Source of the DNA: a virus
DNA length: 20,879 nt
IMG/VR virus record: IMGVR_UViG_3300029813_000238
Coordinates: 1 to 20,879 of that record
Direction: 5' to 3' (one strand)
In this document: piece after piece, positions 617 through 15,909 of the stretch
Numbering within the stretch: position 1 is the first letter of the stretch
Layout: each line of letters opens with the position of its first letter
Notes under the pieces: generated by a model
Seen by the model: only the letters and a program-made list of their open reading frames with translations
Database searches by the model: none
What the model was told of the DNA's origin: nothing
Translations under genes and position numbers: made by a program

Positions 617-1108
617 CTACGCGGCCCGGTGCCCGCCCGTTATGTCCACTGTGCCGGTTCCCCGGTTTGCCTCCTGCCTGATGTGCTCATCGAGAACCTC
701 AGCCAGGAGCTTCGCATCACGCTTGCTCACCGTCTGCAGCTCGGCGGCCTTGTTGGGCTGGCCGTAATCCTTGCGATACTGCCACAGGTAGCGCGGCCCG
801 TGCAGCACCACCCGCGCTCCCTTGCTGCTGGCACGCACGTCCACTACCCTTGATACTTGGCGCTCCAGGTCACCGGTAAACACCAGAGGCCGCCGATGCC
901 CGTACTTCCGGAGCTTCCGGGTCTCGTGGCCCTTGCTCCGTCGCTGGTACCCGTACTCGCTGGCACCGGCCACGGTGAAGTGCTTGCGCAGAATGACCCG
1001 GTGCCAAAACCGTCCCACCTTCCCCCAACCGCTCTTGAGCAGCGGCCGCCACTCTCCGGCGCTGAAGCCCAACCCCTTCCGGGTCAGTTTCTGTTTTATG
1101 GGTATCAT
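617..1108 (-). CDS. Neck/tail completion protein, HK97 gp10-like (putative)
   Basis: A 163-residue basic protein. It has the pattern often seen in phage virion-morphogenesis or gp10-like proteins: an N-terminal helical segment rich in Lys/Arg, then HRVILRKHFTVAGASEYGYQ, a basic linker RRSKGHETRKLRKYGH and RPLVFTGDLERQV, followed by beta strands (GARVVLHGPRYLWQYRKDYG). The 'LVFTGDLER' element resembles the 'L.. TG.L...' motif common in this group. Its ATG overlaps the stop of the upstream 610-residue gene as ATGA, so translation is probably coupled. It sits between connector/terminator genes and the presumed tail tube gene. The family call rests on pattern and position only. Confidence 0.65.
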   Translation of the reverse strand: MIPIKQKLTRKGLGFSAGEWRPLLKSGWGKVGRFWHRVILRKHFTVAGASEYGYQRRSKGHETRKLRKYGHRRPLVFTGDLERQVSRVVDVRASSKGARVVLHGPRYLWQYRKDYGQPNKAAELQTVSKRDAKLLAEVLDEHIRQEANRGTGTVDITGGHRAA

Positions 1109-2937
1109 TGTCCCTCGAAGGTGACCCCGTAGACGACCTCATAGAAGTCCCCGATGAGCAGGTCGTCGTCGTCGTCGACGGCGCCTGCCACTTCGTCCTC
1201 GCTCGGTCGGCGCGGCCCGCCGGCGAGCACAATACCGGTGATGTTCAGATAGCCGGGCAACCCGGCGAGCTGCTCCATATCCGCAACCACCGCGCCGACC
1301 GTGTTCATGAACCTGTAGGCGGCCTCCGAATCGGTGTCGCTACTCTCGACGGCCGCACGAAAGACGAGCGCCAACACCCCGGCCTGGTCGAAGAAGTTCC
1401 TGGAGCCACCGGCCACCTTCTCGCGCGCGAAGTCCGGGCCCCAGTCCACCAGAGCCCAGGGAAGGTCGCGCGGCCCGGCCGAGACAGCGTACACGTGCTC
1501 CAGCGCCTGCGTTTCGTTCCCGACCCCGACCCCGGCCTGAAAGCTGGCGCTGCCGGCGACCGTGTGGCGGAGGTAGTGAAGGGGGAGACTCGCTAGGCCG
1601 GTCGGCGTCCCTGGGTCGCTCGCGTGCCCGGCCCGGTACCAACTCCAACTAGCCAGGTCCAGCCCGAACTCCTGCGTCCCGACGGTGAGCGTGACGCGCG
1701 AGAGGTCGACGTAGGCGCCGACCTGGTACTCCCTGACTCGGAACTCAGCGGGGATCAGGGTAGAATAGTCGCCACTGTCGAGTGTACCCGTAACCTCAAA
1801 CACCGTCTCGGTGAGCTCAGCATCCTTGGTCTCGATAGCCTGGGCGCCATTGAGATTATCAGGGTCGAGTGCGCACGAGCATTCGAGAGGCACTGTAGCC
1901 TGGACTGTGGCCCTCAGCGTGATGCTGTCGCCACCCTGAGCGGAGATGGGTGGGAGTTGGAGCTTGAACGGCTTTGTTGTGCTCACATCGCTGTTGGTGA
2001 TTATCCTACGCGTCGGATCAGTCGATGAGACTTTCTGACAGGTACCCACACCAGCCCAGTTTAGGTAATCCTGCCAAGGTGTGCTCTCGTCGTTGCAGAG
2101 ATGGCTGGGGGAGATATAGCCAGGGCCACGAAGCTCAAAACACGTATGTCCTGAACGGCTATTGTCAATCAATATAGGGGCTTGGTCGAGGATTGAGTTT
2201 GCTAACTCCAGATGAGCATCGGCAACTCTGATCCCAGCATTGTTGGCGTCAATTGCGCCAGTGCTATCTTTGCCAAGAATCAGCCCATGTCCCCACATAT
2301 ACGTAGCTGCGGAGAGACAAAGGGAGTAGCTGCCAAATAAGCCACGCAGATAGACCTCGCCATCGACTTGAATCAAAGCGCCTATTATATACCAACGTGC
2401 CGAAGCGTACAAATCAATCTCAGAAAGATAAACGCTGCCTGAAGCATTTATCCACCCAATGCTTTTGATGCCGTGAATCTTTAGACCCTTGGCATAGACG
2501 GTTCCGGATGGGGTGTCTCTGTTGAGATAAATCGCATCAATGCGATGACTGTCATCATCAATGGCGGGTGCGATCTCAAATGCACTTGCTGCGCTGAGAT
2601 CGAGAAACATACTATAAATATAGATACTCCAGGTGCCATCGGCTGCGCAGGTGACCAGAAGTTTCCCGCCACCAACACTGTCCTCAATTTTTACCCGGTA
2701 AAAAGCGTAGGAGCCCGAGCCCGACGTCGTGGTCATTGTGTAGCCAGTAAAGTCGATGGTCCCGTAGCCGCTGTCCCTGGTGACGTGCTGAACTGTCACG
2801 TCACCATCGAGCGTGACTACGTTGTCATCGCCATTGCAGAAAAACACATCATCCGCACCAGGAGCTACGCCTGTGTCGAAGATGGTTTCTGCATCTGCGA
2901 ACCAGAAACCCGAGCCAATAAGTTTTACGTCTCCCAT
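1105..2937 (-). CDS. Beta-solenoid protein fused to tail-terminator-like C-terminal domain
   Basis: A 610-residue structural protein. Residues about 30-275 are made of short beta strands with repeated small turns (VTLDGDVTVQHV, GSVYLSEIDLY, VDGEVYLRGLFGS), as in right-handed beta-helix fibres or spikes. Residues about 320-425 look like a beta sandwich. Residues about 450-610 resemble phage tail terminator proteins: LRHTVAGSASFQAGVG, then DLPWALVDWG, a GGSRNFF turn, VLALVFRAAV, FMNTVGAVVADMEQLAGLPG and a final GDFYEVVYGVTF strand, with an Asp run near 588-592. It starts at ATG 2937, overlapping the upstream stop as TGATG, with GAGGCG upstream. The DNA of the first half (about 2000-2900) is visibly more AT-rich than its neighbours, suggesting acquisition of the solenoid part. 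The terminator role is inference from sequence pattern and gene order. Confidence 0.75.
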   Translation of the reverse strand: MGDVKLIGSGFWFADAETIFDTGVAPGADDVFFCNGDDNVVTLDGDVTVQHVTRDSGYGTIDFTGYTMTTTSGSGSYAFYRVKIEDSVGGGKLLVTCAADGTWSIYIYSMFLDLSAASAFEIAPAIDDDSHRIDAIYLNRDTPSGTVYAKGLKIHGIKSIGWINASGSVYLSEIDLYASARWYIIGALIQVDGEVYLRGLFGSYSLCLSAATYMWGHGLILGKDSTGAIDANNAGIRVADAHLELANSILDQAPILIDNSRSGHTCFELRGPGYISPSHLCNDESTPWQDYLNWAGVGTCQKVSSTDPTRRIITNSDVSTTKPFKLQLPPISAQGGDSITLRATVQATVPLECSCALDPDNLNGAQAIETKDAELTETVFEVTGTLDSGDYSTLIPAEFRVREYQVGAYVDLSRVTLTVGTQEFGLDLASWSWYRAGHASDPGTPTGLASLPLHYLRHTVAGSASFQAGVGVGNETQALEHVYAVSAGPRDLPWALVDWGPDFAREKVAGGSRNFFDQAGVLALVFRAAVESSDTDSEAAYRFMNTVGAVVADMEQLAGLPGYLNITGIVLAGGPRRPSEDEVAGAVDDDDDLLIGDFYEVVYGVTFEGQ

Positions 2938-3233
2938 CAGCTTCGCCTCACAATGGGCTCGATGACGAGCTCGCGTCGGCGGACTTCGCCCAAAAGCTGC
3001 TCATCGCTCACGTCTGTCAACTCCAGCATCAGCGGTTCGGGAGGAGGATTGACAAGGTCCTCCTTCTGTCGGTTGAAAGCGTCCCAGAAGCGTTGCTCCC
3101 AGTCTTCTCCCACACGAACGGGAATAGGGGAAGTGGGCTCACCAGGGCCGGGCCGCCCTGTAGCAGACAGCCCGAACCAGACCGTGAGCCTGCCCGGAGA
3201 GAGCTCGGCGCTATCCAGAATCACGCTGGTCAT
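2937..3233 (-). CDS. Small conserved-position head-tail region protein, unknown
   Basis: A 98-residue protein read from the ATG at 3233. A GTG at 3245, four codons earlier and overlapping the upstream stop as TAGTG, is an alternative. The ATG has GAGGG five bases upstream and is preferred. The protein begins MTSVILDSAELSPGRLTVWF, has a helical middle (DWEQRFWDAFNRQKEDL), a Pro run (NPPPEP) and a charged C-terminus. I recognise no domain. It lies between the head-tail stopper-like gene and the solenoid/terminator gene with one-base overlaps on both sides, so it is part of the same translational unit and probably a neck or connector component. That role is inferred from context only. Confidence 0.65.
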   Translation of the reverse strand: MTSVILDSAELSPGRLTVWFGLSATGRPGPGEPTSPIPVRVGEDWEQRFWDAFNRQKEDLVNPPPEPLMLELTDVSDEQLLGEVRRRELVIEPIVRRS

Positions 3234-3244
3234 CGGTTCCCTCA

Positions 3245-3601
3245 CTATCGGTCGATGCGCCTGTCCCCGCCTATGACCCTGCGTACCCGGCGCGTCTCAA
3301 GCTGGAGGTCTACGATGGGGGATGTCCGACCGATGAAGACGACAGCCCAGGTCACGCCGTCCATGGTTACCGTGTCGCGCGTGTCCGGGTCGCTCACGTC
3401 GAGTGCACTGGCCCGCAACAGCCCCAGCCTGACCTCCTGCTCGCTGTCGGGCATGTAGCCAGCCAGGACCTCGCTCTCCGTCCAGACCGCAGTGATCGAC
3501 GTGCCCTGTCCGCCATGGGGCGTGTAGGTGACCGTCCGCCCTCGAGTGAGGACCATGGCGGCCCAGGCTGTCCCCTGTACCATCTCGTCAAAGACGGTCA
3601 C
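3245..3601 (-). CDS. Head-tail joining (stopper/FII-like) protein, putative
   Basis: About 118 residues from a GTG at 3601. A longer reading starts at GTG 3610, but GGAGGTG lies six bases before the 3601 codon and directly abuts the 3610 codon, so 3601 is favoured. The protein has an N-terminal helix, then RTVTYTPHGGQGTSITAVW, a beta-rich middle and DTVTMDGVTWAVVFIGR near the C-terminus. The 'VTYTP.GG...  AV' start and 'D.VT.DGVTW.V' strand pair are typical of small head-completion proteins such as the gpFII/SPP1 gp16-like group. It sits immediately after the capsid gene, where those proteins are encoded. It probably closes the head-tail connector after packaging. Confidence 0.65.
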   Translation of the reverse strand: MTVFDEMVQGTAWAAMVLTRGRTVTYTPHGGQGTSITAVWTESEVLAGYMPDSEQEVRLGLLRASALDVSDPDTRDTVTMDGVTWAVVFIGRTSPIVDLQLETRRVRRVIGGDRRIDR

Positions 3602-3706
3602 GGCAAGCACCTCCAGGCAGCGGACAACTCCACCAGATGCTCCCGGCCGGGCCGGGCGAAGCCACCCGACCGGAAGCCCTGGTGCGCTGTCGCGGTGATA
3701 TCTTGC

Positions 3707-4663
3707 CTATGCCTCGATCTGCATGAGGTGAGCGAAGGCGGCGTCAAACACCTTCTCTTCCACGAACTCGCGCCCCCGGAAGATGTCGCTCTCCGTCTGG
3801 ACTTCCCGGTACTGGACAATGGGCACGCCGCCGGTATCCATCAACTGCCACCGGAAGGTGCGCCCCAGGCCTCCGCTTCGGAGGCCGCCGGTGTTCCGAC
3901 GCAGCACCATGGCATAGCTGCCGGACCAGACATCGGCCGCCGTGAACGACTGCCCCTCGTCGGCCGAGTCATAGGTCTTGCGACCCACAAACAGCTCCCG
4001 CAGCCCGAGGATTCCCGCCAACTGCGACCGCAACACCGCTTCGGTCAGAACGGTGATCCCGGGGAACCGCGCTATAATGCCCGTGTTCTTGAGCATGTTG
4101 TTCAGCGCCTTCTCGCCGATGACCAGCGTTTCCGGCACCATGCCCGTAGCCTCCCGCACCTTCTCCTTGACCGCCTGCACCTGGGCGATAACCTCCGTCG
4201 CCGCAGTACTCCAGGGGCTGCCGGAGTTGTCGGTGAAGAGCGCCGCTCCCGTCCAGGTGTTGGTGTTGAACGTGAGCGTAGCTACGCGGATCTCCTTCTC
4301 CATAAGGATTTTGTGCCGGAGGATGTCAACGGTCTCCAACTCGGCGTCGAAGTCGCTGACGTAATTGGCGCGGTCGGTGTCGGTGAGCTGCGCCTCAAGC
4401 CCCCTGTCCCGGCAACTATAGGCCAGGTCCTCACCGCCTATGCCGATGCGATTGAACACCGCGCCGTTGGCGTGAAGCGAATTGGCCCGCTTCAGGATGC
4501 TCTCGCGGGTGATCACCGACACCGTGGCCGCCTTCTTAGTCACCGGGCGGTCAGGGAACACGTCCTGGGCTATGAAGCCGGCCGCCGACATGTCGTACTC
4601 GTGGTAGGCTTCACCCAGGTCGGCTCGCGGAACAGCGTAAGTGCCGTACTGGAGAGGTGGCAT
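3707..4663 (-). CDS. Major capsid protein (lambda gpE-like family)
   Basis: A 318-residue protein with the features of the gpE-type HK97-fold capsid family: N-terminal 'AAGFIAQDVFPDRPVTKKA', a long helix region (LRHKILMEKEIRVATLTFN), a conserved 'GMVPETLVIGEKALNNML' segment (the 'P.tlvig...w..l' strand-helix of this family), 'ILGLRELFVGRKTY', 'WSGSYAMVLRR' and a C-terminal beta part. Order (protease, decoration, then capsid) is that of lambda gpC-gpD-gpE. The ATG at 4663 has GAGGAG eight bases upstream and a 122-base leader that contains a hairpin, which may help set its high expression. It should form the icosahedral shell. No delta-domain is evident, in keeping with a separate scaffold nested in the protease gene. 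Confidence 0.93.
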   Translation of the reverse strand: MPPLQYGTYAVPRADLGEAYHEYDMSAAGFIAQDVFPDRPVTKKAATVSVITRESILKRANSLHANGAVFNRIGIGGEDLAYSCRDRGLEAQLTDTDRANYVSDFDAELETVDILRHKILMEKEIRVATLTFNTNTWTGAALFTDNSGSPWSTAATEVIAQVQAVKEKVREATGMVPETLVIGEKALNNMLKNTGIIARFPGITVLTEAVLRSQLAGILGLRELFVGRKTYDSADEGQSFTAADVWSGSYAMVLRRNTGGLRSGGLGRTFRWQLMDTGGVPIVQYREVQTESDIFRGREFVEEKVFDAAFAHLMQIEA

Positions 4664-4785: not shown

Positions 4786-5745
4786 CTACGACGTCAGCAG
4801 AGCCGCTGTGTATTCGAGCCAGACGGCATACAGCAGGCAGTCGTCCGTCCCGAGTTCACCGTCCTTCGGGTGCAACACGACGGTCAACGCCGACGGTGAG
4901 GCCGGTACATCGGCGTTGGCGATGGTGTTCAGGTACTCGGTGAGGATCGTGCCGCCGTCGATCTCATCGTCAGTGCCGGCGCAGTCGGTGTCGGCCTTGT
5001 TGAAATAGGCCTCCATCGTCAGCTCCGGAGTGTCCGTCGCCCCAGACATCAGTGCCAGCGCGTGAATGATAACGTCCGCGCTCTCGTCCAGGTCCTCCGG
5101 CAGCGGCACGGTGAACGCGACGTCGCCAGGGGTCGCATGGTTGTTCCACCTCAGCACGACCTCTTTGTTGCTCTCCTGGCTGAACCCGGGAGTCGCCGAC
5201 GCGCCGTCTGAGAAGGTGTCGATGGCCGTGCCGTCCTCCAGCATCAGCGAGCCCAACGGAATCATGATCGACCGCTGAGCGCTGAGGAGGTGCTGGTAGA
5301 CCTCTTGCAGCGCCGCTTCCACCTCCGTCTGCGCGGTGAAGGCGCCAGAGTCGGTGATGCTCACAGTGGCAGCGGTGGTACTCTTGAGACTCCAGGCTTC
5401 CATTTCGATGATGGAGCCGTCGCCGCTGGCCGCCTCGAGCGCGATACCGATTGCCGACCCACTTGAGCTGTCCTGCACCTTCCCGTCGGCGCCACCGTAG
5501 AGGACTGCCCCGACCGCCGACGCTTCGACAGCCGTCACCTTCACTGTCCCTTCGGCCGTTCGCAACCGCACGGCCACCGGCGCCTCGTTCGCCGCCGCCT
5601 TCTCGGTCACCCCGATATAGTCCTCACCGGCATCGGCGTACTCGACCACAGTACCACTGGCGGCCGACAGCTTCACCCGGCGGAACGCCTCCAGCGCCTC
5701 GCCGGCGGTGAAGGCCTTGACCGGCCCTTCCGTCCTCTGAGACAT
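4786..5745 (-). CDS. Head decoration protein (DUF2190-like) with extra C-terminal domain
   Basis: A 319-residue protein. Residues 1-118 match the small beta-barrel capsid-decoration type (DUF2190): FRRVKLSAASGTVVEYADAG, EDYIGVTEKAA, VAVRLRTAEGTVKVTA and a GSAIGIALEAASGDG closing strand. Residues about 133-155 (SGAFTAQTEVEAALQEVYQH) form the helical linker common in phage structural proteins. Residues 158-319 are an additional beta-rich domain (MIPLGSLMLEDG, LRWNNHATPGDVAFTVPLPE, SADVIIHALALMSG) of unknown function, which is more than twice the length of the usual stand-alone protein. It lies between the protease/scaffold and capsid genes, the lambda gpD position. It probably coats the capsid surface and projects the extra domain outward. 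The latter is inference. Confidence 0.75.
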   Translation of the reverse strand: MSQRTEGPVKAFTAGEALEAFRRVKLSAASGTVVEYADAGEDYIGVTEKAAANEAPVAVRLRTAEGTVKVTAVEASAVGAVLYGGADGKVQDSSSGSAIGIALEAASGDGSIIEMEAWSLKSTTAATVSITDSGAFTAQTEVEAALQEVYQHLLSAQRSIMIPLGSLMLEDGTAIDTFSDGASATPGFSQESNKEVVLRWNNHATPGDVAFTVPLPEDLDESADVIIHALALMSGATDTPELTMEAYFNKADTDCAGTDDEIDGGTILTEYLNTIANADVPASPSALTVVLHPKDGELGTDDCLLYAVWLEYTAALLTS

Positions 5746-6284: not shown

Positions 6285-7130
6285 AGCCATCCCTCCTTTA
6301 CCCTGCGCTTGCCGGGCCGCAGCCAGCGCGTCGTCGAACCCACCGACGGTATCAATGAGCCCCAGTTCGCGGGCTCGGCCAGCCAACCACACGCGCCCGC
6401 TCGCCAGCTCCGCAACGAGCGTCCGGCTTACGCCCCGACCCCGGGCAACAGCCGATACGAAGACGCCAGCAAAGTCGTCCACGACCTCCTGTAGAGCCGC
6501 TACCTGTTCGTCGGTGATGGGCACGCCCGCGTACCCCCCCCCTTTGTGCTCACCGCTCCGACTCAGCTTTACCTCTATCCCTTCTTTCTCGGCGCGAGCG
6601 CTGGAATCAACGACCACCATGTAGACCCCCACCGAGCCCACTTGTGCCGTCTCGTTCGCCGTCACGGGAACCCCCTGCGACGCCAGCCAGTAGGCCCCCG
6701 ATACACCCATGTCGTCGATGTAGGCCGCCACCGGCTTCTCGGACCGAGCAGCAAAGATGAGATCCGCTGTCTCCTGCGCCCCCTCCGCGTCACCCCCCGG
6801 CGAGTCAACATGCAGCAAGATCGACTTCACCGCCTTCTGCCTCAGTGCCTGGGTAACGTCGCGTCTGATCTCATCAAACGTGGTAAGGCCGATGCCGAAC
6901 AGTCGCAGGAACCAAGGCGCCCCCTTCACCAACACGCCGGTCACCGGCACGATTGCGATGCCGTCCTCCACCTTCATCCGACTCGCTGGTTCCTCGCGCT
7001 GGGCCTGGAGCGCCGCCATGTCGACCGACAACGCCGACAGGTGCACCATCTGACGCACGAACGCATCCAACGCCAGGGGCTCCATAGCCCACCGGCGCTT
7101 CTGTAGCTCGGCAATCACCCCGTCGTTCAT
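5808..7130 (-). CDS. S49 (SppA/ClpP-fold) prohead protease with C-terminal scaffold region
   Basis: A 440-residue protein, the counterpart of lambda gpC. Residues about 52-270 are an S49 peptidase: VKSILLHVDSPGGD (oxyanion region, 101-114), the nucleophile Ser144 in MGVSGAYWLAS, the GSVGVY strand (165-170) and the probable dyad Lys196 in SRSGEHKGGGY. Residues about 270-440 are an Ala/Glu/Gln-rich helical region (QTGQQEVERLQTELDEAKAA) typical of a scaffold. Within it is a strong internal in-frame start at residue 283, described separately. The ATG overlaps the portal stop as ATGA, with GGAGGAAGA upstream. In lambda-like phages this protease matures portal and scaffold inside the prohead. Context (portal before, decoration and capsid after) agrees fully. 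Confidence 0.93.
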   Translation of the reverse strand: MNDGVIAELQKRRWAMEPLALDAFVRQMVHLSALSVDMAALQAQREEPASRMKVEDGIAIVPVTGVLVKGAPWFLRLFGIGLTTFDEIRRDVTQALRQKAVKSILLHVDSPGGDAEGAQETADLIFAARSEKPVAAYIDDMGVSGAYWLASQGVPVTANETAQVGSVGVYMVVVDSSARAEKEGIEVKLSRSGEHKGGGYAGVPITDEQVAALQEVVDDFAGVFVSAVARGRGVSRTLVAELASGRVWLAGRARELGLIDTVGGFDDALAAARQAQGKGGMAMSEEDVQAGELEAARVQAAAEGQEAERQRVVDLFAAFPADPGFAATQAQAGASVEQAKAAYADVLAERVQTGQQEVERLQTELDEAKAAPPVDGAVPVPHGGEADEEGDADFMAVARERAKGDGIGITQAMKLVAAEQPELHSGWVASQKPIQLRNIA

Positions 7131-8713
7131 TCTTCCTCCTCGCCTTCGGCCCGCTCAGCCTGCTCATCTTCGCTGGGCTCACGAGGCCCGGTTGGTGTAT
7201 CCCCCCCCGCTGGTGTGTCGCCCGCCCGCCGGCCGCCCTTCACCCCGGGCGGACGCAGACCGGCAAAGATCTCCCACGGTACCTCGACGCCCGTTTGCTT
7301 TTCCAGCTTCTGCGCCCTTTTGATCGCGTCGAGCACTTCGGCCTGCCGTGCCTCCACCACGTTCTCGCGCTCAAGATTGAGTGACTTGCAGACTATCGCA
7401 TGGGTCGTGAAGCCTCGGTCGAGCTTGGCACCTTGGGCCTGAGCCTCCTTCAACTGGTCAATCCAAGGGAACGTCGGCTTTATCCAGTCATGCTGTAGCG
7501 CGTCAGCCCGCTCAGCCAGGAGCCCCGACCTCACCCACTGCCCCACCTTCCACTCATAGACCGGCCGGTTGAACCCGCCGGCGATGATGTTCTGCCAATC
7601 CTGGAAAGTCTGGTAGGCCTGCTCAAGCACGGCCCGGGATTGGCTGTAATTGGACTTGGTCCAGTCCAGCAGGACGATCTCCAGGGGCATACCCAGCGGC
7701 AACCCGAGCAACCGGAGGAACATCACCACCGACTCCTGGAAGTTGCGGCCGGGGATGTTCCGCTCAATACCTTTGATCTCGTCTCCGCTCTCGCCGTGGA
7801 AAACCAGCGCATAGGCGAGCTCTGTGATGCGCACCGCCAGCTCGTCACCGCTGGCCCCTGGGTCCTCCGTGCTCTCTTCCTGACCAATCTGCGGGCCTGC
7901 TTCCCTGGTGATACTCAGGGCCAGCCGAGCCAGAAGCTGCCAGGCGATTGCCTCGGAATCGCAGACGTCATTGATTCGGTGAAGCATGGGGAAGCTGGCT
8001 TGACAGGGGGGCACGCTGCGCACCCCAGTTGGCCGTTCCGGTGTAGTCATAAACAAGAAGAACTCGGGCTCGATCTGCCTGGCCCTCTCATTGGCGAGCT
8101 GGCCCCGGGCCCCGTAGGCCGTCACGAAGAACTTAACAGGCATCCCCCACTCGTCCTTCTTTATCCCGTCCCTGTAGGTCTTGGACGTGATCTGCTCGGC
8201 TTCGATTAGTTGAATAAGGCCGGCTCGCGGCTTTCCGAGTTTCACAACACCGGTGTCACCGCACTTCAAGAGCTCGGTGCATACCATTCGCTCTGTCTGC
8301 TGTCCCGAGAGGAGTTGCTTCACCCCTGGCTTGCGCCAATACTCTCGCCAGAGCCTTTCCGCCTCACGGTTCCAACGCTTACTTGTCGTCCGCGCCTGGA
8401 GCCCGAAACCGCCGCCGATGATGTAGCCAGCCGCGCGTTCGATGATGCCCCGGTAGATGCCGTTATTACGGACGAAGTCCCGGCTTTGGTTGAGCAGCGC
8501 GGGTCGGTGATACTGTGTGTGAACTGCGCCGGACCCGCCAACCGTGCCCCGCCCCTCTTTCGACGCGACGGTCACGGCGCGATAGCCCAAGGCAGTATAG
8601 GTCCCCCGGTGCTGTAGAACGTCGTAGGTCTGCCGGCGGGCCCCACGCTTCGGCTTTGCTATCGCCGGCGCGCTCACGAAACGACCAGTGTTGGGGTCCC
8701 GCCGCCTCACCAT
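7127..8713 (-). CDS. Portal protein (lambda gpB family)
   Basis: A 528-residue protein of the lambda-family portal type. Recognisable parts are the basic N-terminus, 'LLNQSRDFVRNNGIYRGIIE' (the typical 'l..RsRdl.rNn.ia.g.i' helix), 'IIGGGFGLQA', 'EYWRKPG', 'CGDTGVVKLG', 'IQLIEAEQITS', 'INDVCDSEAIAWQLLARLAL' and 'LPLGMPLEIVLLDWTKSNYSQSRAVL' (portal helix and C-terminal 'NYSsaRaal'). The C-terminal 40 residues are acidic and disordered-looking. ATG 8713 has AAGGA eight bases upstream and overlaps the preceding gene by seven bases; its stop overlaps the protease start as ATGA. It forms the dodecameric vertex through which DNA is packaged and to which the neck attaches. Confidence 0.94.
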   Translation of the reverse strand: MVRRRDPNTGRFVSAPAIAKPKRGARRQTYDVLQHRGTYTALGYRAVTVASKEGRGTVGGSGAVHTQYHRPALLNQSRDFVRNNGIYRGIIERAAGYIIGGGFGLQARTTSKRWNREAERLWREYWRKPGVKQLLSGQQTERMVCTELLKCGDTGVVKLGKPRAGLIQLIEAEQITSKTYRDGIKKDEWGMPVKFFVTAYGARGQLANERARQIEPEFFLFMTTPERPTGVRSVPPCQASFPMLHRINDVCDSEAIAWQLLARLALSITREAGPQIGQEESTEDPGASGDELAVRITELAYALVFHGESGDEIKGIERNIPGRNFQESVVMFLRLLGLPLGMPLEIVLLDWTKSNYSQSRAVLEQAYQTFQDWQNIIAGGFNRPVYEWKVGQWVRSGLLAERADALQHDWIKPTFPWIDQLKEAQAQGAKLDRGFTTHAIVCKSLNLERENVVEARQAEVLDAIKRAQKLEKQTGVEVPWEIFAGLRPPGVKGGRRAGDTPAGGDTPTGPREPSEDEQAERAEGEEEE

Positions 8714-12160: not shown

Positions 12161-13135
12161 TTAGCGTCCGTACTGTGCCTTGTGCCAGTTCCAGGCGCTC
12201 CGAACGATGTCCTCCAGGTCCATCACCTCTGGCGTCCAGCCCAGTTCGTCCCGTGCGGCGGTTGCGTTGGCGTAGAGCATTGCCGGGTCGCCAGGGCGCC
12301 GTTCACCAATCCGCATCTTCAGACTCCCGCCGGTTACCCGGGTGACCACCCCTAACACAGTCATGACACTTAACCCTATGCCCGTCCCCAGGTTGTACGC
12401 CCGCCGGTCCCCGCGCTCCAGCGACTCCATCGCCAGCCAGTGAGCCCGGGCAAGGTCATCCACGTGGACGTAATCCCGAACGCAGGTCCCGTCCGGGGTA
12501 TCGTAATCACGCCCGTGGACCATTACGTACCCGTCGCCGTCCAGCACCGCCTGAAGAGCGACGGGTATAAGATGCACCTCCGGAGCGTGTTGCTCTCCCA
12601 GGCTTCCATCGAGCGCGGCACCGGCAGCATTGAAGTACCGGAGCGACACGAACCCAAGCTGCCAGGCCCGGCAGCAGTCGCCCAGTATCCGCTCCACCAT
12701 TGCCTTGGTCACGCCATAGGGACTGACGGGATTGACGGGCGTTAGCTCGTCGACGTACCCGGTCGGCGGGTTCCCATAGACGGCACAACTGCTGGAGAAC
12801 ACCAGCCGGCGTACCCCGCAGAAGCGCATGGCTTCCAGCAGCCGGGCTGTGCCCCCGACGTTGTTCTGATAGTAGGCCAGCGGGCGCTTCAGGGATGCGG
12901 CCGGCGACGTGAGCCCGGCGAAGTGCATCACCGCGTCAGGCCGGAAGTCCCGCATCGTGCCCTCCATCAGCCGCTCGTCGCTCATGTCCCCCACGACCAG
13001 GGGCACTCCTGCGACTGCCGACCTGTGCCCAGTGCTGAGGTTGTCATACACCAGCACGTCAGCGCCGTGTTCCACCAAGGCCTTGACACAGTGGCTACCC
13101 ACATAGCCCGCTCCGCCGACCGCCAGCACCTTCAT
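12161..13135 (-). CDS. galE: UDP-glucose 4-epimerase
   Basis: 324 residues from ATG 13135, which has AGGAGG six bases upstream (an earlier in-frame start at 13150 is less likely). It is a complete extended short-chain dehydrogenase: NAD-binding GGAGYVGSH at residues 7-15, VYDNLSTGHR (29-38), HFAGLTSPAAS (71-81), the catalytic Ser region FSSSCAVYG (113-121), Tyr140 and Lys144 of the YxxxK motif in SPYGVTK, LRYFNAAGA and the substrate-binding CVRDYVHVDDLARAH. Length (about 330) is normal and no key residue is missing. It interconverts UDP-glucose and UDP-galactose. In a phage it may supply the sugar donor for the glycosyltransferase encoded just upstream in the transcript, for DNA or virion glycosylation, or alter host surface sugars. 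The enzyme call is firm; the purpose is inference. Confidence 0.95.
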   Translation of the reverse strand: MKVLAVGGAGYVGSHCVKALVEHGADVLVYDNLSTGHRSAVAGVPLVVGDMSDERLMEGTMRDFRPDAVMHFAGLTSPAASLKRPLAYYQNNVGGTARLLEAMRFCGVRRLVFSSSCAVYGNPPTGYVDELTPVNPVSPYGVTKAMVERILGDCCRAWQLGFVSLRYFNAAGAALDGSLGEQHAPEVHLIPVALQAVLDGDGYVMVHGRDYDTPDGTCVRDYVHVDDLARAHWLAMESLERGDRRAYNLGTGIGLSVMTVLGVVTRVTGGSLKMRIGERRPGDPAMLYANATAARDELGWTPEVMDLEDIVRSAWNWHKAQYGR

Positions 13136-13146
13136 CAGTCCCCTCC

Positions 13147-13389
13147 TCACGACTGAGAAACGTCGTCCACTGTCCCATAAACCGCGCGTACCTCTGACGG
13201 GTCAAAAGCGAATTCGCTCACGGACAGCCGGGCGAGCCGGCCCTTGCGCGGCCGCCGATTCACCTGCCTGACAACCTGGTAGAACACGGCAGTGCTTAGT
13301 GCGTGACTACGGAGTGCTCGGTGGTCCAGGGGGATCACGTCCTCCGTGGTCCCGTCGCGGAACACCACGTACACTTGATACTGCTTCAT
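13147..13389 (-). CDS. Small protein of unknown function
   Basis: An 80-residue protein with ATG at 13389 and GGAGGGG seven bases upstream. It begins with a beta strand (MKQYQVYVVFRDGTTEDVIPL), continues with a helix (LRSHALSTAVFYQVVRQV), then a basic patch (NRRPRKGRLAR) and an acidic C-terminal end. It ends 12 bases before the galE start. I recognise no family. The clear ribosome site and tight coupling to galE support it as a real gene of the same unit. Confidence 0.65.
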   Translation of the reverse strand: MKQYQVYVVFRDGTTEDVIPLDHRALRSHALSTAVFYQVVRQVNRRPRKGRLARLSVSEFAFDPSEVRAVYGTVDDVSQS

Positions 13390-13710: not shown

Positions 13711-14475
13711 CTATGAGCCGCGCGTTGCCGCCACCTGACTCCGCCGTCTTACGCGCAGCGACATCCCTGTCGTCCCACGTTTCTTCCGGCCACCCATGTC
13801 CAGATAGGGGCCCCACCGCCGGGTCATGATCTCCAGGTCCCGTTCGTGGGTCGCGGCCGTCCGTACCCCTTGCAGGCCGCCGGCGCCACCCCAGATATCC
13901 CCGTGGTCGAAGTAGAAGCGGCGGTCGCAGTAGACAATCCGATGGTCGCGCAGGACCCGCAGGGTCAGGTCGACGTCCTGCTGGCCGACAATGTTTGTGT
14001 CGTAGGCCAGGTCTCGGCCGACAATGCCATAGGAGCAGGACGCCGGCGCCGCCAGCGCCACCGGGTCGTTGGCCCGGAAATACATTGGGTTAGACTGCCG
14101 GTCCCAGCAGAACAGTTTCAGCCCCAGGTCCTCACAGATGGTGATTGAGTTCTCGATGATGCGCAGGATTGCACTTGGTTCTGTGATCGCGCGGAACCCC
14201 CGCCGGCCTACCTGACACCGCACACAGCGCAGGTCGTCATCGACGTTGACCATGACCTGCGTCTTACAGTGCTCCAATATCCACTGCATGATTGCGCCCA
14301 TGCCGACCAAGGGCGGGTGAGCCAGGAGCTTCTTCCCGGGCACGACCTGAGCGTAGGCCTCGACCTCGCTCTCCTCCACGCAGACCCGGGCCGTCGGCAG
14401 GAGCGCCAATATCCGCTCCATGTTCCCGACGCGCTGCCGGCTCGGGACTATGATGCTGTAGCTACTTCGGGCCAT
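13711..14475 (-). CDS. GT-A glycosyltransferase, TET-associated (TAGT)-like
   Basis: 254 residues from ATG 14475, with GGGAGAT eight bases upstream and a 14-base overlap with the preceding gene. It starts with a strand-loop SYSIIVPSRQRVGNM, typical of the 'i.iPSRgRa' opening of TAGT-type enzymes. It then has VCVEESEVEAYAQVVPG, a helix GAIMQWILEHC and the metal/nucleotide-binding VNVDDDLRC (Asp79-81, the DxD motif). Later come SYGIVGRDLAY and the acidic QQDVDLTLRVL (Asp167, Asp169), followed by RRFYFDHGD. The C-terminal 30 residues are basic. TAGT enzymes are known from phage gene clusters that make modified pyrimidines, where they are thought to add sugars to oxidised or hydroxymethylated bases in DNA. 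The GT-A fold is well supported; TAGT membership is recognition by pattern and needs a profile search. Confidence 0.7.
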   Translation of the reverse strand: MARSSYSIIVPSRQRVGNMERILALLPTARVCVEESEVEAYAQVVPGKKLLAHPPLVGMGAIMQWILEHCKTQVMVNVDDDLRCVRCQVGRRGFRAITEPSAILRIIENSITICEDLGLKLFCWDRQSNPMYFRANDPVALAAPASCSYGIVGRDLAYDTNIVGQQDVDLTLRVLRDHRIVYCDRRFYFDHGDIWGGAGGLQGVRTAATHERDLEIMTRRWGPYLDMGGRKKRGTTGMSLRVRRRSQVAATRGS

Positions 14476-14746
14476 CGCTCGGATCTCCCTGCTCGCCCTC
14501 GACTGACTCGAGTAACGGGAGCTCGGCCCCCTGGTCTGTGTTCTCTTTGGTGACCACAAGCTCGGCCGCCGACTTGCCTCCCTCGATGCTGACCGTGATT
14601 TCGTCCTCTTTAGTGACCGCCACGCTCTCGCAGGTGCGGTCGATCTGCTTCAGCAGCACCTCGAAGCCGTGGGCCAATCCGAGCAGGTTGGTCGCCTTAG
14701 TGAGCAGGTCGAGCGGAAACAGTTCCTTCTGTGTCGGGTTCCCCAT
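14462..14746 (-). CDS. Small acidic protein of unknown function
   Basis: 94 residues from ATG 14746, with AAGGAGGAGGAG immediately upstream, one of the strongest sites in the window. A longer in-frame reading to 14986 overlaps the HhH gene and is rejected. The N-terminal half is helical (LFPLDLLTKATNLLGLAHGF, then EVLLKQIDRTCESV). The middle is beta-like (DEITVSIEGGKSAAELVVTK). The C-terminal 25 residues are acidic (LLESVEGEQGDPSDGPK). It lies between the HhH protein and the glycosyltransferase. An accessory or inhibitor role for one of these is conceivable, but no family is recognised. Confidence 0.7.
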   Translation of the reverse strand: MGNPTQKELFPLDLLTKATNLLGLAHGFEVLLKQIDRTCESVAVTKEDEITVSIEGGKSAAELVVTKENTDQGAELPLLESVEGEQGDPSDGPK

Positions 14747-14760
14747 GCTCCTCCTCCTTC

Positions 14761-15318
14761 TTAGATAAGGCCAAGGTTGGCCGCCCTCCAAAACACCACG
14801 TCCACGACGCCTATCCGATGCCCGGTGTCCTGCGCGACCTCGCCACACAGGTCTTGAACCGTTATCCCGAACTCCTCCGCCAGACTTGTCAGGTGACGGT
14901 CGGGTTTGCACACGTCCATCCCCAGGTTCCGGGCCAGATGGTAGCAAGTGATTCGGCCGACCCAGGGCAACTCGCGCAGGAAACACAGTCTGCCCTCGTC
15001 GGTCTCGCAGAGCCGGTAGTCTGAGAACAGCACTTCCCGATGCCGCCAGATGTAGTCAATGGCCTTAGCCTTGCCTTCGTGGTGGAAGTGCTGAAGTGCT
15101 GCCTCACCCCCTTTTAACCCAGGGCCGAGCCGTGCCCATATCGTCCGCGCAACCTGCTCTTTGAGGCCGGAACAGAGGATCACCCAGATTGCTTCCTCTG
15201 CAAAGGTGAGGGCGTCTGAGCAACAGCCCACCTCTTCGGCCCAGGTTATTTCGTCAACATAGCCTTGGTTCAGCAACTGCTCACGGAGCCCCAGGTAAAG
15301 GTTGGTCGCATTCCTCAC
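14761..15318 (-). CDS. Helix-hairpin-helix DNA-glycosylase-fold protein (aGPT-Pplase-like candidate)
   Basis: 185 residues from GTG 15318, overlapping the previous stop as GTGA. It is all-helical. FAEEAIWVILCSGLKEQVAR (39-58) corresponds to the first core helices of HhH-GPD proteins. FLRELPWVGRITCYHLARNL (113-132) is the hairpin 'LP.vG..ta..la', and DVCKPDRHL (135-143) carries Lys138 and Asp140 at the place of the catalytic Lys/Asp of DNA glycosylases. GHRIGVVDVVFWRAANLG closes the fold. Length is short for a classical glycosylase (no iron-sulphur or extra domains). It resembles the stand-alone phage family proposed as alpha-glutamyl/putrescinyl thymine pyrophosphorylases, which act on hypermodified thymine. 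Fold call fairly firm; exact activity is inference. Confidence 0.65.
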   Translation of the reverse strand: MRNATNLYLGLREQLLNQGYVDEITWAEEVGCCSDALTFAEEAIWVILCSGLKEQVARTIWARLGPGLKGGEAALQHFHHEGKAKAIDYIWRHREVLFSDYRLCETDEGRLCFLRELPWVGRITCYHLARNLGMDVCKPDRHLTSLAEEFGITVQDLCGEVAQDTGHRIGVVDVVFWRAANLGLI

Positions 15319-15743
15319 TGACTGCTCTTCCCCTCCAGCAGTTCAATGAGCCGGCGTGCGGGGATCGCGCGGCCCAGACCGATCTGCTTCTTCCCCGTGA
15401 GTGCACTTGCGTTCACCGGTTTGAGCTTGAGCTTGTCGCACAGCCACTCCCAGTCCTCGGTATTGTCGGCGAGCACCAGCACATAGTCGTAATGCTCGAA
15501 GGGCTGGAGCTCCATGCGCTCGTCGACGTCGGCCGCCGGGGGCTTGCCCACAGCCCCGTCCGACGGCTGCTCGGGAACGTCAATGGCGTCGAGCAGCAGG
15601 CTCTCAAACAGATCCGGGGTCGCCGCTTCGATGTCCTCAAGAATGGCGGCGACGTCCGGCGTGAAGTCGCCGGCCAGGGCCGGGTTGTTGGCAGCGACGT
15701 TGGCAAGCTTCGCGCTCTCATCGTCCCAGTCCACTACGCGCAC
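15315..15743 (-). CDS. ParB-like C-terminal fragment
   Basis: 142 residues from GTG 15743. Residues 1-45 continue a ParB-like domain after the missing centre (VVDWDDESAKLANVAANNPA). The middle is acidic, and residues 78-138 form a separate compact region (PFEHYDYVLVLADNTEDWEW, then LKLKPVNASALTGKKQIGLG) that resembles the C-terminal part of phage ParB-like proteins implicated in DNA modification clusters. Its stop overlaps the HhH gene start as GTGA, so the downstream gene stays translationally coupled to it. Coding character is good throughout, suggesting that the C-terminal part may still be made. Confidence 0.55.
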   Translation of the reverse strand: MRVVDWDDESAKLANVAANNPALAGDFTPDVAAILEDIEAATPDLFESLLLDAIDVPEQPSDGAVGKPPAADVDERMELQPFEHYDYVLVLADNTEDWEWLCDKLKLKPVNASALTGKKQIGLGRAIPARRLIELLEGKSSQ

Positions 15744-15909
15744 CGGCCACCGCCCAGTAGCGTGTCCGGACGTTGTAGACGAAGCCGCTCAGATCTCCGA
15801 AGCGGCCCATCGACGCCTTCAGCCCCTCCAGGGCCTCGGCGGTGATCGTGCGCGGGTTGTAGGGTGCATCCCGCAACTGCGCCAACGTCAGCCTGGGTTT
15901 CTTCGCCAT
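15718..15909 (-). CDS. ParB-like N-terminal fragment
   Basis: 63 residues from ATG 15909 (MAKKPRLTLAQLRDAPYNPR). It holds the N-terminal strand-helix part of a ParB-like domain and ends in 10 residues (AGARSGLGR) that diverge from the family because of the frame change. Starts three bases... after the stop of the upstream 68-residue gene. Alone it lacks the nucleotide/DNA-contacting core and is unlikely to have ParB-like activity. See the combined broken-gene entry. Confidence 0.55.
   Translation of the reverse strand: MAKKPRLTLAQLRDAPYNPRTITAEALEGLKASMGRFGDLSGFVYNVRTRYWAVAGARSGLGR

Follow-up and report, generated by a model that had tools for sequence, protein, structure and literature searches.

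Devices for contact with the host are usually sought at the tip of the phage tail. The tail terminator, as is established for its family, is a hexamer that closes off the tail tube and contacts the stopper. Appendages at the neck are known already: in XM1 the collar spike gp40 docks on the terminator gp5 (PMC10457771), and in lactococcal 936 phages binding modules are found on neck and tail proteins (PMC6669499). What is new in the material described below is a set of unlike N-terminal additions on one family of terminators, present in five of 21 loci. The starting point was a 610-aa ORF, which probably encodes the sole recognisable tail terminator of its phage, with an appendage on its N-terminus.

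Gene Layout of the Contig

The window, i.e., the whole stretch of 20,879 nucleotides that was analysed, is a 20.9-kb virus fragment from IMG/VR, whose structural genes are all located on the minus strand (this applies to all window coordinates given below). Along that strand the genes are ordered as follows: small terminase, large terminase, gpW-like protein, portal, S49 protease, decoration protein, major capsid protein, lambda FII-like stopper, 102-aa ORF, 610-aa ORF, Z-like protein, and a truncated tail-tube-like protein. The portal (7127-8713) and the major capsid protein (3707-4663) were assigned by their matches to PHROG 21 (portal, 4e-46) and PHROG 1005 (major head protein, 5e-41), and the stopper, or head-closure protein (3245-3610), by Pfam Phage_attach (29.5 bits at a cut-off of 26) and PHROG Hc1. 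The Z-like (tail-completion/neck) protein (617-1108) was recognised from its position and from a 57% identical orthologue, which adjoins the terminator in the related locus L003; in a more distant locus, L088, an HK97-gp10_like protein directly follows the terminator. The tail-tube-like protein (1-605) is cut by the contig end, and its homologues of ~300 aa occupy the same position in L003, L054, L078, and L084.

The 610-aa ORF is a single unbroken frame (2937 to 1105), whose ATG start overlaps the stop of the upstream gene. It consists of a solenoid-like beta-rich block of foreign composition (residues 1-310; 2008-2937), a predicted, weakly CBM-like beta-sandwich (residues 311-440; 1618-2007), and a C-terminal domain modelled with the gpU/p142 terminator fold (residues 441-610; 1105-1617). 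The 102-aa ORF lying between the stopper and the fusion (2937-3245) has no homologue in the related loci searched; it is missing from the nearest relatives, the stopper directly abutting the terminator in L003, L083, L084, and L085. This small ORF is possibly a part of the same insertion as the N-terminal block.

Some other features of the contig deserve mention. The first ~115 residues of the decoration protein (4786-5745) are conserved among relatives and the remaining 200 or so are variable, the length of the protein in relatives ranging from 114 to 377 aa; it is a possible further site of variable display, located on the head. Near the terminase genes, a TET-associated glycosyltransferase (Pfam TAGT, 13711-14559) and an NAD-dependent epimerase (12161-13150) may constitute a module for DNA base hypermodification. 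Two short overlapping ORFs (15315-15909) resemble a single ParB-like gene that changes frame, and neither of them matches Pfam.

The C-Terminal Domain as a Tail Terminator

The AlphaFold2 model of residues 441-610, obtained with nine aligned members, had a pLDDT of 85.8 and a pTM of 0.81 and is predicted to have the terminator fold, i.e., an antiparallel sheet with two main flanking helices. When this domain was compared with PDB structures, at least 40 of the best 45 matches were tail-terminator or neck-ring chains of phages or phage-like particles, the top one being T5 p142 (E 8.5e-6); the others included cyanophage A-1(L) gp7, lambda gpU, P74-26, DT57C, R4C, NF5, Chi, GTA, Mu, and XM1. The TM-scores to terminators were moderate (about 0.3-0.5), which is to be expected, since terminators have their fold in common and lack sequence similarity (PMC11784142). 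For the same reason a match to a curated family is not a defining feature of terminators; searches of Pfam and PHROGs gave no match to a curated terminator family. As to size, terminators are usually small single domains of about 130-166 aa, and here the domain comprises 170 aa of a 610-aa protein; larger terminators exist, so size is typical rather than defining (PMC11784142). Of the 50 matches listed for the domain in the viral model library, one was a protein of 667 aa and all others had 125-224 aa. The gene slot is also that of a terminator, between the stopper/neck genes and the tail tube, both in the window and in L003, L084, L092, L105, and L106. We conclude that residues 441-610 are a tail-terminator domain. 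The preliminary description had proposed a terminator-like domain in the C-terminal 160 or so residues; the structural comparison assigns the fold to ~170, so that the lack of a match to terminators, which would have spoken against that description, did not occur, and a stand-alone 161-aa homologue occupies the same slot in relatives.

Relatives with the Stand-Alone Terminator

The portal yielded one relative directly and, with an alignment as the query, 80 loci; scanning with the Z-like protein as well provided 15 further contigs. Without duplicates, this terminator family is present in 21 loci, in 16 of them in a free-standing form of 152-176 aa and in five with an N-terminal addition. In L003, the closest relative (major capsid protein 63% identical), a free 161-aa protein encoded between the stopper and the Z-like gene matches residues 444-609 at 48% identity, and among the nearest relatives the identity of the stand-alone orthologue is 48-50%. 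Homologues lacking the N-terminal part, for which the preliminary description had proposed a search, are thus present in the same slot. L083, L084, and L085 have the same arrangement as L003, with terminators of 161-163 aa, the order being stopper, terminator, Z, and tail tube in all four. An HMM built from four stand-alone forms only and searched against the ORFs of all loci recovered the domain of the window (5e-50) as well as those of L054 (6e-26), L078 (2e-7), and L088 (9e-6). With HHalign, this family was not linked to the proteins presumed to be terminators in the sister tail type (c3), and we accordingly claim no sequence homology between the two. One contig, L096, has two copies of the family (3104-3634 and 6793-7905). 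Its 370-aa terminator ORF was considered as one more extended case and rejected, its first 195 codons having a non-coding composition (GC2 0.75).

Since the contig is a fragment ending in the tube gene, one could suppose that the 610-aa protein is a dedicated collar protein built on a duplicated terminator-like base, with the true terminator encoded outside the contig. Duplication does occur in this family, as in L096, but only one copy is present in each of L003, L084, and L085, where it lies in the same slot, flanked by the stopper and Z, and the window has no spare gene of terminator size between the stopper and the tube. A separate terminator gene, which would have spoken against the preliminary description, was sought in the orthologous loci as well, and no second gene of terminator size was found from the stopper to the tube. 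A duplicated base is therefore very improbable in our opinion, and we retain the reading of the 610-aa protein as the terminator itself.

Composition and Fold of the N-Terminal Block

The GC3 value is 0.52 for residues 1-310, 0.75 for residues 311-440, and 0.85 for residues 441-610; in the other structural genes it is 0.75-0.84, except for the 102-aa ORF (0.69). The segment encoding residues 1-310 is the lowest-GC kilobase of the contig (GC 0.51), and the first 930 nt of the ORF fall within the lowest 0.3% of equal-length windows in the contig. The first 440 residues are an added block of foreign base composition, and the preliminary description was right in considering the extra part more AT-rich than its neighbours. 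The low GC3 as compared with the terminator and the other structural genes supports a recent acquisition. The insertion of the block into a terminator gene, also proposed in the preliminary description, agrees with structure, synteny, stand-alone orthologues, and GC3.

The sharp change of GC3 within the ORF, together with the lack of a close relative with the same N-terminus, might also be explained by an assembly chimera or by a dead read-through fusion. Against this, the C-terminal domain and the genes on either side of the ORF have the composition of the contig itself and match its kin, all 610 codons are open, and the start overlap is normal. Moreover, four other loci are fused at the same junction, and one of these fusions (L077/L078) is present in two contigs. 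Because of these in-frame fusions, an artefact is the least probable of the explanations considered, and we treat the fusion as a real gene.

As for the fold of the added block, searches of Pfam, PHROGs, NCBIfam, PDB, INPHARED, IMG/VR, and GTDB contigs yielded no homologue of the whole 610-aa protein, and the N-terminal part searched alone, also against the related loci, gave none either; for residues 1-320 there was no Pfam, PHROG, or PDB match. An apparent similarity of the N-terminus to the solenoid-like part of L054 (local alignment z 4.0) was rejected, as it was equalled by a shuffle. In the full-length model, residues 1-320 appear as strands and coil with a pLDDT below 50, and hydrophobic autocorrelation revealed no significant rung period in the block; a beta-solenoid in residues 1-310 is plausible as a model. 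The beta-sandwich, with strands at about 324-426, was modelled with a pLDDT of 44-65, and its Foldseek likeness to CBM3b is weak (probability 0.96 but E 0.04); residues 311-440 are moderately predicted to be such a sandwich. Of the solenoid and sandwich that the preliminary description had placed in about 450 residues, the sandwich is thus a moderate model prediction and the solenoid a plausible one.

Different N-Terminal Modules on the Same Domain

The five extended terminators, that of the window and those of its distant relatives L054, L078, L088, and L095, carry unlike additions. In L054 the addition is composed of a solenoid-like stretch and an FnIII-like module, in L078 it is an FnIII-like sequence of about 245 residues, and in L095 it is a beta-rich-looking domain of 160 residues with coding composition. 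The terminator of L088 (8074-10440) has four GLUG and five PASTA matches. The L088 contig was assigned to a Kiritimatiellae MAG; the terminator domain was found in only one of 346 genomes of this class, and we accordingly assign no host to the window. In L078, directly upstream of the terminator, there is also a separate 466-aa ORF, by eye a beta-helix plus sandwich, for which database searches gave no convincing match.

Additions of a related kind are present on the stopper. FII-like stoppers in L012 (19891-20583), L016 (18415-19098), L027 (12663-13358), and L037 (13990-14727) carry N-terminal additions homologous to the FnIII-like module on the L054 terminator (phmmer, 9e-13 to 4e-7), the stopper domain of all four being confirmed by HMM (1e-21 to 2e-26). 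The designation FnIII-like denotes a resemblance, since the module matches Pfam fn3 only below the cut-off. Many relatives also possess large unshared ORFs between the capsid and neck genes, some of them with LamG or beta-helix matches (Pfam Laminin_G_3 in L012, 16634-18181, and L060, 16124-18937; Pfam Beta_helix in L027, 9482-11056).

The tree of the terminator domain is poorly resolved; on the best tree the extended forms represent five changes, and their single origin was not rejected (p-AU 0.11). Judging mainly from how unlike the modules are, the additions may have been gained independently. Taken together, the sequences suggest that the terminator serves as a hexameric anchor for exchangeable neck appendages, which it would display for binding. 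A broader proposal, in our estimate evenly balanced between true and false, is that terminator and stopper together form a general display hub, N-terminal modules of solenoid-like, FnIII-like, GLUG, PASTA, and other types being swapped on and off the neck rings so that six or more copies of an adhesin are presented.

Possible Function and Origin of the Appendage

The six terminator domains would form a ring capping the tail tube and receiving the head. In the ring of the R4C terminator the two main helices are peripheral (PMC10276861), so a fusion that precedes the first helix at the N-terminus could exit sideways, giving six arms at the neck, i.e., a collar of beta-rich appendages projecting from it. 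The location of the appendage at the neck should follow from its fusion to the terminator domain. The arms may aid reversible attachment by binding to glycans or to a surface, be it host envelope, matrix, or particles. Since the modules are variable and some belong to types often found in adhesion proteins, binding to host, matrix, or particles would be the likeliest role for them. The fibre- or whisker-like host-contact device supposed in the preliminary description gains in strength from the FnIII-like, GLUG/PASTA, and beta-rich modules at the same site, and we still infer it rather than observe it. As to the origin, an appendage gene was probably joined in frame to the terminator gene immediately following it; L078 has the beta-helix-plus-sandwich-like ORF in exactly this upstream position.

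The added domains could instead reinforce the structure or decorate the neck, bracing it or contacting the capsid vertex, with no contact with the host. There are precedents: the Milano collar, for which no role in binding is known, braces the neck to the tail sheath (PMC10491603), and the base of XM1 gp40 also strengthens the head-tail joint (PMC10457771). A fixed structural brace, however, would not be expected to vary as the modules do among relatives (FnIII-like, GLUG, PASTA), and the nearest relatives encode no N-terminal block at all. We consider bracing unlikely, though less so than a chimera or a duplicated base, and prefer the binding function.

If true, the proposed arrangement represents a class of neck appendages built into the terminator ring rather than docked on it. 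If the tail-end ring does carry swappable modules, many unnamed ORFs of 300-800 aa that uncultured phages have between their capsid and tail genes would become identifiable as neck appendages, and terminators lost to length filters would be recoverable. The question of what a phage gains from binding at the neck is thereby made testable.

Comparison with Known Systems

The terminators of siphophages (lambda gpU, T5 p142, R4C, SPP1 gp17) share with the C-terminal domain of the window protein its predicted fold and its slot near the stopper and tube; they are single domains of about 130-166 aa, whereas here 440 residues are added N-terminally. The gene order also differs, being stopper-terminator-Z-tube here and FII-Z-U-V in lambda. 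A literature search for N-terminal fusions of terminators found no earlier description. The uncultured Caudovirales phage protein A0A6J5NHA8 (667 aa, 'collagen triple helix repeat'), which we know as a database match alone, has a terminator-like predicted fold (E 1.1e-4, BFVD) and an appendage of a type different from that of the window protein. Enlarged terminators of contractile systems (e.g., PVC16) resemble the window protein in having extra domains, but these serve the sheath or are located C-terminally, and none has been described as a variable N-terminal surface module (PMC11784142).

T4 whiskers (fibritin) and the Milano collar are neck structures too, but they are made of separate proteins without fusion to a terminator. 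The lactococcal 936 phages, to which we liken the window case, have CBMs added to structural proteins of the neck and tail and variable between relatives; these decorations are reported for the neck passage structure (NPS), the major tail protein, and Dit, but not for the terminator (PMC6669499). Like the appendage proposed here, gp40 of XM1 is a neck spike positioned at the terminator ring; it is, however, a protein of its own, trimeric and tailspike-like in its C-terminal part, whereas the appendage of the window protein is covalently a part of the terminator.
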